NCBI RefSeq assembly: GCF_016801025.1
Contig: NZ_CP068983.1
Coordinates: 868,001 to 932,000, forward strand
Direction: 5' to 3'
Source of the DNA: Paradevosia shaoguanensis
Lineage (GTDB): Bacteria > Pseudomonadota > Alphaproteobacteria > Rhizobiales > Devosiaceae
DNA length: 64,000 bases
The number at the start of each line of letters is the position of its first letter. Position 1 is the first letter of the stretch. Made by a program: the position numbers and the translations under genes. Under the pieces are notes generated by a model, which made no database searches, had not been told where the DNA came from, and worked only from the letters and a program-made list of their open reading frames with translations. Positions 1,570 through 3,409 of the stretch are shown in pieces.

Positions 1570-2127
1570 TCAGAACTTGACGGTCGGGACGGCGCGGTCG
1601 GCAGCGTTCTCGAGCTCGAAATATTCCGCCTTGGTGAACTTGAACATGTTGGCGATGATCGCCGAGGGGAAGGATTCAACCGCCACGTTGAGATTGCGCA
1701 CGGCGCCGTTGTAGTAGCGGCGGGCTAGCTGGATTTCGTCTTCGACGCCCTGCAGCGCCTTCTGGAATTCGAGGAAAGTGGTGTTAGCCTTGAGGTCCGG
1801 ATAGGCCTCGGCGACGGCAAGAAGGCGCCCCAGGGCACCGGTCAGCGCGCCTTCGAGCTTGGCCCGTTCCTCCGGGGTGGCGTTGGAGCCGGCCTGTGCG
1901 GCGGCGCGGGCGCTGGTGACCGCTTCGAGCGTTTCGCGCTCGTGGGACATGTAGCCCTTCACCGTTTCGAGCAGATTGGGAATGAGATCGGCGCGGCGCT
2001 TGAGCTGCACGTCGATGCCCGACCAGCCTTCCTGCGTCAGTTGCCGGTTCCGCACCAGGTCGTTGTAGAGGTAGACGCCGTAGCCGAGGACGGCGACGAC
2101 GATGATGAGAATAATCCAGCCGGTCAT
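1570..2127 (-). CDS. lemA: LemA family protein
   Basis: A 185-residue protein with one N-terminal membrane helix (WIILIIVVAVLGYGVYLYND) and a long helical domain. It carries the LemA signature WSGIDVQLKRRADLIPNLLE near residue 35, and later FPSAIIANMFKFTKAEYF. I chose ATG 2127 over an upstream in-frame ATG (2172) because GGGGA stands just upstream and the protein then starts directly at the membrane helix, as LemA proteins do. The family is membrane-anchored with an unknown biochemical role. It is followed after 22 nt by the DUF2207 gene, probably in one transcript. Confidence 0.92.
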   Translation of the reverse strand: MTGWIILIIVVAVLGYGVYLYNDLVRNRQLTQEGWSGIDVQLKRRADLIPNLLETVKGYMSHERETLEAVTSARAAAQAGSNATPEERAKLEGALTGALGRLLAVAEAYPDLKANTTFLEFQKALQGVEDEIQLARRYYNGAVRNLNVAVESFPSAIIANMFKFTKAEYFELENAADRAVPTVKF

Positions 2128-2180
2128 GATTTTCCCCTGAACGCCAAGCGCAAGCCGAATGCACACTGGCATTGCGGTGC

Positions 2181-2247
2181 GAGGACTTCAACAGGGCAAT
2201 AGCTAAGCAAAGTGCTGCTTTTCTTAGCTATTGTCCTGCTCGTCCTC
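2181..2247 (-). promoter_or_regulatory. Long RNA hairpin over the stop codon of the arfA-like gene
   Basis: On the minus strand AGGACAATAGCTAAG (2237-2223) pairs with CTTAGCTATTGCCCT (2207-2193), 14 Watson-Crick pairs and one A-C mismatch. Inside it AAAG/CTTT closes a CAGCA loop; outside it GAGGAC (2247-2242) can pair with GTCCTC (2186-2181). The TAA stop of the arfA-like gene (2226-2224) lies in the 5' arm. There is no U-run after the stem, so it looks more like an RNase III-type processing hairpin than a classical terminator. Confidence 0.8.
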
Positions 2248-2424
2248 ACCAGCGGGAACGGAAAAGGGGAGCTGATGTTCCATCACGCTCCCCTTTGGAT
2301 GCTTCTGCTTGCGGCTGTAAGCCTTCGGGTTTTTCTCGACCTTGGGTCGAAACTGCCCTTCGGACAATGCCCGGGCGGCCAGGTTAGGTGGCGCGGATTG
2401 CTTGCGCGTGAGCTTTATCTTCAT
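2224..2424 (-). CDS. arfA: ArfA-like alternative ribosome-rescue factor
   Basis: A 66-residue basic protein. Residues 18-43 (ARALSEGQFRPKVEKN, then PKAYSRKQKH) line up with the conserved core of E. coli ArfA in the pattern AL-x-x-x-x-F-R-x-K/R-V-E-K-N-x-K-x-Y-x-R-K-x-K-H. ArfA recruits RF2 to ribosomes stalled on mRNAs without a stop codon. The tail after residue 45 is not conserved, as in ArfA, where it is dispensable. The stop codon and last four codons are buried in a strong hairpin, which recalls the E. coli arrangement where arfA mRNA is itself cut to a non-stop form under tmRNA control. It lies 58 nt after glyQ on the same strand. The assignment rests on this motif only; the protein is short, so a search is needed to exclude another small basic family. 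Confidence 0.7.
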   Translation of the reverse strand: MKIKLTRKQSAPPNLAARALSEGQFRPKVEKNPKAYSRKQKHPKGSVMEHQLPFSVPAGEDEQDNS

Positions 2425-2430
2425 CGGAAA

Positions 2431-2451
2431 TCTCCCGTTACGGACGGGAGA
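2431..2451 (-). promoter_or_regulatory. Hairpin holding the arfA-like ribosome binding site
   Basis: TCTCCCG (2431-2437) and CGGGAGA (2445-2451) form a perfect 7-bp stem between glyQ and the arfA-like gene. On the minus strand the 3' arm contains GGGAGA, which is the only good Shine-Dalgarno sequence for ATG 2424 (about 8 nt away). It could mask translation or act as a weak end to glyQ transcripts; the run after it is only TTT. Confidence 0.45.
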
Positions 2452-2482
2452 TAGATAGGCAGCCCGGCGCTAAAATTCTACC

Positions 2483-3409
<927 letters not shown>

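Follow-up and report, generated by a model that had tools for sequence, protein, structure and literature searches.

The window, a 64,000-nt stretch of the Paradevosia shaoguanensis genome, includes a small minus-strand gene that lies between glyQ and lemA and encodes an ArfA-like protein (Table 1). Its transcript is predicted to form two strong hairpins. One is located inside the reading frame, directly after the ArfA-like core, and has the appearance of an intrinsic terminator. The other begins with codon 60 (position 2247) and has the stop codon in its 5' arm. The start codon of lemA, the next gene downstream, is near position 2126.

Table 1. Genes and putative control elements at the ArfA-like locus (positions in the window)
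Feature	Position	Strand	Remarks
glyQ	2483..3409	minus	upstream gene; TIGR00388 2.2e-145; adjoins 17 homologous loci
Candidate -10 element CTATCT	2453..2458	minus	34 nt upstream of the ArfA-like start codon
Leader hairpin CTCCCGT/ACGGGAG, 7 bp	2432..2450	minus	spans the Shine-Dalgarno sequence; z -3.96 in this genome
ArfA-like ORF, 66 codons (66 aa)	2424..2224	minus	ATG start; TAA 2226-2224; DUF7230 family; core at about residues 13-45
In-ORF hairpin resembling an intrinsic terminator	stem 2296-2263, U-tract 2265-2262	minus	codons 43-55; predicted 3' end of a non-stop mRNA
Stop-codon hairpin	2181..2247	minus	5' arm holds codons 60-66 and TAA; possibly a second device of RNase III type
lemA	1570..2128	minus	next downstream gene; Pfam LemA 4.4e-60; neighbour at 22 homologous loci

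The ArfA-like gene probably has its own promoter, because a -10-like box stands at the matching place in relatives and is joined in several of them by a CTTnAA-like -35 element. Of the 14 relatives that share the subtype of this gene, 11 have a CTATAT or CTATCT box at -31 to -39, and the CTTnAA-like element, where present, is separated from it by a 17-nt spacer. The candidate -10 element in the window was not flagged by a generic sigma-70 scan. The Shine-Dalgarno sequence GGGAG (2436-2432), 7 nt ahead of the ATG, is a good match. Similar leader hairpins covering this sequence were seen in L016, L022 and L026, and not in all relatives.

The first-pass annotation had recognized an ArfA core motif in the protein. 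Profile matches to ArfA support that assignment, but the protein scores only 14.3 bits with the Pfam ArfA model (PF03889), under the cut-off of 25.5. It does pass the cut-off of Pfam DUF7230 (PF23876; 28.9 bits, cut-off 27, E 1.3e-6), and alpha- and gammaproteobacterial relatives pass it too. DUF7230 is a family without functional assignment, and we found no mention of it in the literature searched. Single-sequence searches of the PDB, and a search with Pfam ArfA over the protein's own genome, did not find ArfA; the single-sequence PDB matches to Tsi3-type immunity proteins were rejected as chance. When a profile of 21 relatives was compared with 177,635 distinct PDB sequences, the top six matches were E. 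coli ArfA chains (E 9.4e-5 to 1.8e-4), with the next match at 0.06, and alignment with hhalign against 12 bona fide ArfA proteins gave a probability of 91.7% (E 7.8e-7). Four alphaproteobacterial relatives recovered by the same profile of 21 relatives (L092, L105, L109 and L111) score 26.7-28.5 bits with the Pfam ArfA model, over its cut-off, and carry a KGKGSY-like motif, and thus bridge the DUF7230-type and ArfA families. An in-ORF terminator is present in L092, L109 and L111, and not in L105. Genome contigs were scanned with the narrower alignment A3, the broad one (A1) being too divergent for this purpose; the scan identified seven named loci, including ones in Maritalea porphyrae and Devosia sp.

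At the residue level, the conserved N14, L20, F25, Y36 and R38 fit the ArfA pattern save for a three-residue deletion in GKGS. The KGKGSY-x-RK motif itself is not found, the protein having NPKAYSRK at this place, three residues shorter and with the Y and R retained. In an ungapped alignment the equivalent of E. coli Ala18 is Arg or Lys, and the A18T variant of E. coli ArfA is inactive (PMC5378476). Due to the shorter GKGS and the Arg/Lys at the Ala18 position, we call the protein an ArfA homologue without filing it under PF03889. It is very probably a relative of ArfA, with a homology that is clear only with profiles, and judging from these similarities it probably works like ArfA.

The terminator-like hairpin inside the reading frame has the layout AAAGGGGAGC-GTGATGGAACATCA-GCTCCCC-TTTT (2296-2262), with a folding energy of -22.4 kcal/mol and a z-score of -4.9. 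It encodes the KG...LPF stretch that directly follows the core, and an RNA stopping here would end near codon 54, with the core included and the stop codon excluded. The U-tract is short, four T residues in the DNA followed by CC, and termination may therefore be partial. This site was not reported by a generic consensus terminator scan, and a strict ungapped scanner missed it because the hairpin has a bulge. The strict scanner was replaced by a folding-based scan, which found in-ORF terminators in every one of the 14 Devosiaceae relatives sharing this subtype, in none of the 16 relatives of an acidic-tail subtype, and at 12 of the 29 loci of Alphaproteobacteria outside this family, against a background of 325 hits per 351,280 nt, or some 0.08 for each 90-nt region; the subtypes were defined after the sequences had been inspected, making the contrast between them descriptive, while the excess over background is little affected. 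The stem sequences vary by lineage and the place just after the core is kept, with compensated stem changes in some groups (L014, L016 and L017; L023 and L025). Strong structure over the gene end, taken as a z-score of -2 or lower, is found at 12 of the 14 loci of this subtype, as opposed to 3 of the 16 acidic-tail loci; in the bona fide ArfA genes that served as the control the count is similar, 12 of 13.

The acidic-tail subtype occurs in the Devosiaceae genera g11 and g8 (L003-L007, L009-L013, L015, L018, L020, L027, L028 and L030). Its members have the protein core without an in-ORF terminator, are mostly in ArfB-bearing genomes, and at several loci follow a different upstream gene. Because this subtype keeps the core and lacks the terminator, non-stop control is not universal among these genes, and its members are possibly ArfA-like proteins freed from such control.

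To our knowledge, those proteobacteria that have been studied cannot do without a back-up when trans-translation fails, and ArfB is the only such back-up known in Alphaproteobacteria, with about 15% of the surveyed genomes apparently lacking it. According to reviews, ArfA is confined to beta- and gammaproteobacteria. A survey of 15,259 genomes, 2,376 of them from Alphaproteobacteria, reported arfB for 2,022 of the latter and arfA for none (PMC11633108). That survey used nucleotide profiles (PMC11633108), which would probably miss such a divergent 60-codon gene. The host genome studied here, assembled as one contig and 100% complete, has an alpha-tmRNA gene (tag ANDNHKAPVALAA) as well as genes for RF2 and RF1. 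ArfB is absent from it, with only RF1 and RF2 matching the ArfB model at 33 bits (cut-off 100), and is also absent from the genome of a congener. In the family Devosiaceae, 22 of 121 genomes lack ArfB. The ArfA-like gene is found in 13 of these 22 versus 18 of the 99 ArfB-bearing genomes (odds ratio 6.5, Fisher p 2e-4, each genome being counted singly and phylogeny ignored), and the association holds when only genomes at least 90% complete are used (p 7e-4). For these counts, G065 and G074 were assigned to the ArfB-lacking set by elimination, and a single match in G004 (24 bits) was excluded as too weak. In the remaining nine of the 22 ArfB-lacking genomes, neither ArfB nor the ArfA-like gene was detected. 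Seven genomes with neither gene detected are at least 90% complete (G003, G009, G018, G024, G026, G030 and G036), and five of the seven belong to one genus with 2 Mb genomes. These genomes may carry a different back-up factor, or an ArfA that has diverged even further.

The protein could instead be a small, basic member of DUF7230 with an unrelated function (another ribosome- or RNA-binding peptide, for instance), whose gene ends in a terminator without encoding a rescue factor. The lack of an assigned function or literature mention for DUF7230 and the failure of single-sequence searches to find ArfA are in keeping with this. We consider it unlikely, however, in view of the profile matches to ArfA, the bridging sequences over the Pfam ArfA cut-off, the recurrence of in-ORF terminators, and the over-representation of the gene in ArfB-lacking genomes.

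The second hairpin was the focus of the first-pass annotation, which had placed the TAA in a 5' arm starting at codon 60, at exactly 2181-2247 (z about -7 in our analysis), and had described added inner (AAAG/CTTT) and outer (GAGGAC/GTCCTC) stems. All of this is confirmed by folding. The RNA from 2247 to 2181 has a minimum free energy of -40.2 kcal/mol with z-scores of -5.6 to -7.1, and none of 200 shuffled controls folds as well. The stem was also said to have 15 bp, but mismatches interrupt it; the long middle stem, which includes CAATAGCTAAG with the TAA inside, has one A/C mismatch. Neither strand has a U-tract after this hairpin, which therefore is no intrinsic terminator in its own right, and no Rfam family matches it at gathering score. 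An origin from a dispersed palindromic repeat was ruled out since the sequence has a single copy in the genome. Comparison within the host genus rests on two genomes, this one and that of the congener, where the same structure is more perfect (-45.4 kcal/mol, z -7.6) and the duplex is perfect across more than 20 bp. The covariation that had been proposed as a check is seen in their alignment: two stem positions are altered on both sides, one of these compensated pairs involving the second base of the stop codon (TAA here, TGA in the congener), which is matched by a T-to-C change on the other side, and two further positions mismatched in the window are paired in the congener. With two sequences, this is good but thin evidence that the stop-codon duplex itself is under selection. 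The first-pass annotation had named a conserved protein without a conserved hairpin as grounds against its reading. This is what is seen for the stop-codon hairpin outside the genus (2/2 genomes examined within it), with the hairpin absent from sister genera, but it does not apply to the predicted non-stop architecture as such, which is retained in relatives. At a gammaproteobacterial DUF7230 match (L047), a TAG stop lies within a strong hairpin (z -6.2) that resembles this one in another class.

The stop-codon hairpin had been taken as the main non-stop device. If it acted through RNase III as in E. coli, with the upstream hairpin of minor importance, this would account for the long, highly stable duplex shared by the two genomes of the genus and for the compensated pairs that include the stop codon, and E. 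coli arfA is known to be cut by RNase III (PMC4245945). Nevertheless, we find this improbable: the hairpin is limited to the host genus, sister genera retain the in-ORF terminator alone, and an RNA ended at 2262 excludes the stop-codon hairpin altogether. The conserved device is the in-ORF terminator upstream, which the first-pass annotation had overlooked, and the stop-codon hairpin is at most a second layer of control. The hairpin might also be a leader structure of lemA that does not serve the ArfA-like gene, given its location between the two genes, some 55 nt ahead of the lemA start codon; other Devosiaceae have lemA in the same place without the hairpin, and there is little chance that this explanation is correct.

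Among known systems, the closest likeness is to ArfA (YhdL, PF03889), also a small basic protein with an N...L...F core and a Y-x-R(K) basic end, encoded in genomes with tmRNA and RF2, with a hairpin in the reading frame just past the core that is predicted here, too, to yield a non-stop mRNA. Besides the shortened GKGS, the sub-threshold Pfam score and the Arg/Lys at the Ala18 position, the system differs in the two successive hairpins of the host genus and in its occurrence in Alphaproteobacteria, from which ArfA was reported absent (PMC11633108). BrfA (YqkK) of Bacillus subtilis has a terminator inside its coding region, a non-stop mRNA, repression by trans-translation and RF2 as its partner (PMC6881298). 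This logic was experimentally tested for BrfA, whereas here it is read from sequence and folding, and we set BrfA apart because its sequence and contacts have been described as different from those of ArfA. ArfB (YaeJ), the usual factor in Alphaproteobacteria, would occupy the same back-up niche, but has its own GGQ domain and no non-stop control, and is absent from the host genome. Convergence is a further alternative: the factor could have evolved independently and come to resemble ArfA in sequence and in non-stop control, as has been argued for BrfA, which shows that a terminator within the reading frame can appear in a factor described as different from ArfA (PMC6881298). This would agree with the variation of hairpin sequences between lineages but is very unlikely given the N-x5-L-x4-F spacing and Y-x-R end that fit ArfA and the full KGKGSY-like motif of the alphaproteobacterial intermediates.

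We consider it likely that the product of this gene is a divergent rescue factor of the ArfA type that recruits RF2 and is expressed from non-stop mRNA. Counting against this are the Pfam ArfA score under the cut-off, the missing GKGS, the residue at the Ala18 position, the short U-tract at a site that the generic scan left unreported, the acidic-tail subtype without terminator, and the nine ArfB-lacking genomes with neither gene detected. In the proposed mechanism, transcription would start at the gene's own promoter and meet the in-ORF terminator, and because this sits inside the coding region, most mRNAs would end with the functional core encoded and the stop codon missing. Ribosomes at the non-stop end would normally be rescued by tmRNA and the tagged peptide directed to proteolysis. 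With tmRNA overloaded or absent, the ArfA-like peptide would be released and could serve as a back-up rescue factor. The short U-tract may let some transcription through, and the read-through RNA would contain the second hairpin, whose long duplex includes the paired stop codon and would be a suitable substrate for RNase III. Cutting of this duplex, probably by that enzyme, would once more produce a non-stop mRNA. As for the E. coli arfA circuit that had been suggested at this locus, the ArfA-type protein, the non-stop design and the tmRNA-bearing alphaproteobacterial host hold up, with the wrong main device having been named. As to its origin, independent emergence or very ancient conservation had been suggested. 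The protein looks ArfA-homologous, while no sequence is common to the hairpins of different lineages; this pattern fits an old homology with the hairpins turned over.

More broadly, and with confidence leaning only slightly in its favor, DUF7230-type proteins may be the missing alphaproteobacterial ArfA-type factors, replacing ArfB in several lineages, with the mRNA of the host genus made non-stop twice, by the terminator and by the stop-codon hairpin. This would provide a concrete back-up candidate for some of the Alphaproteobacteria that lack ArfB, add an ArfA-type variant to a class where ArfA was reported absent, and give a likely function to an uncharacterized Pfam family. It also suggests that self-regulating non-stop control persists across ArfA relatives although their hairpins share no sequence.
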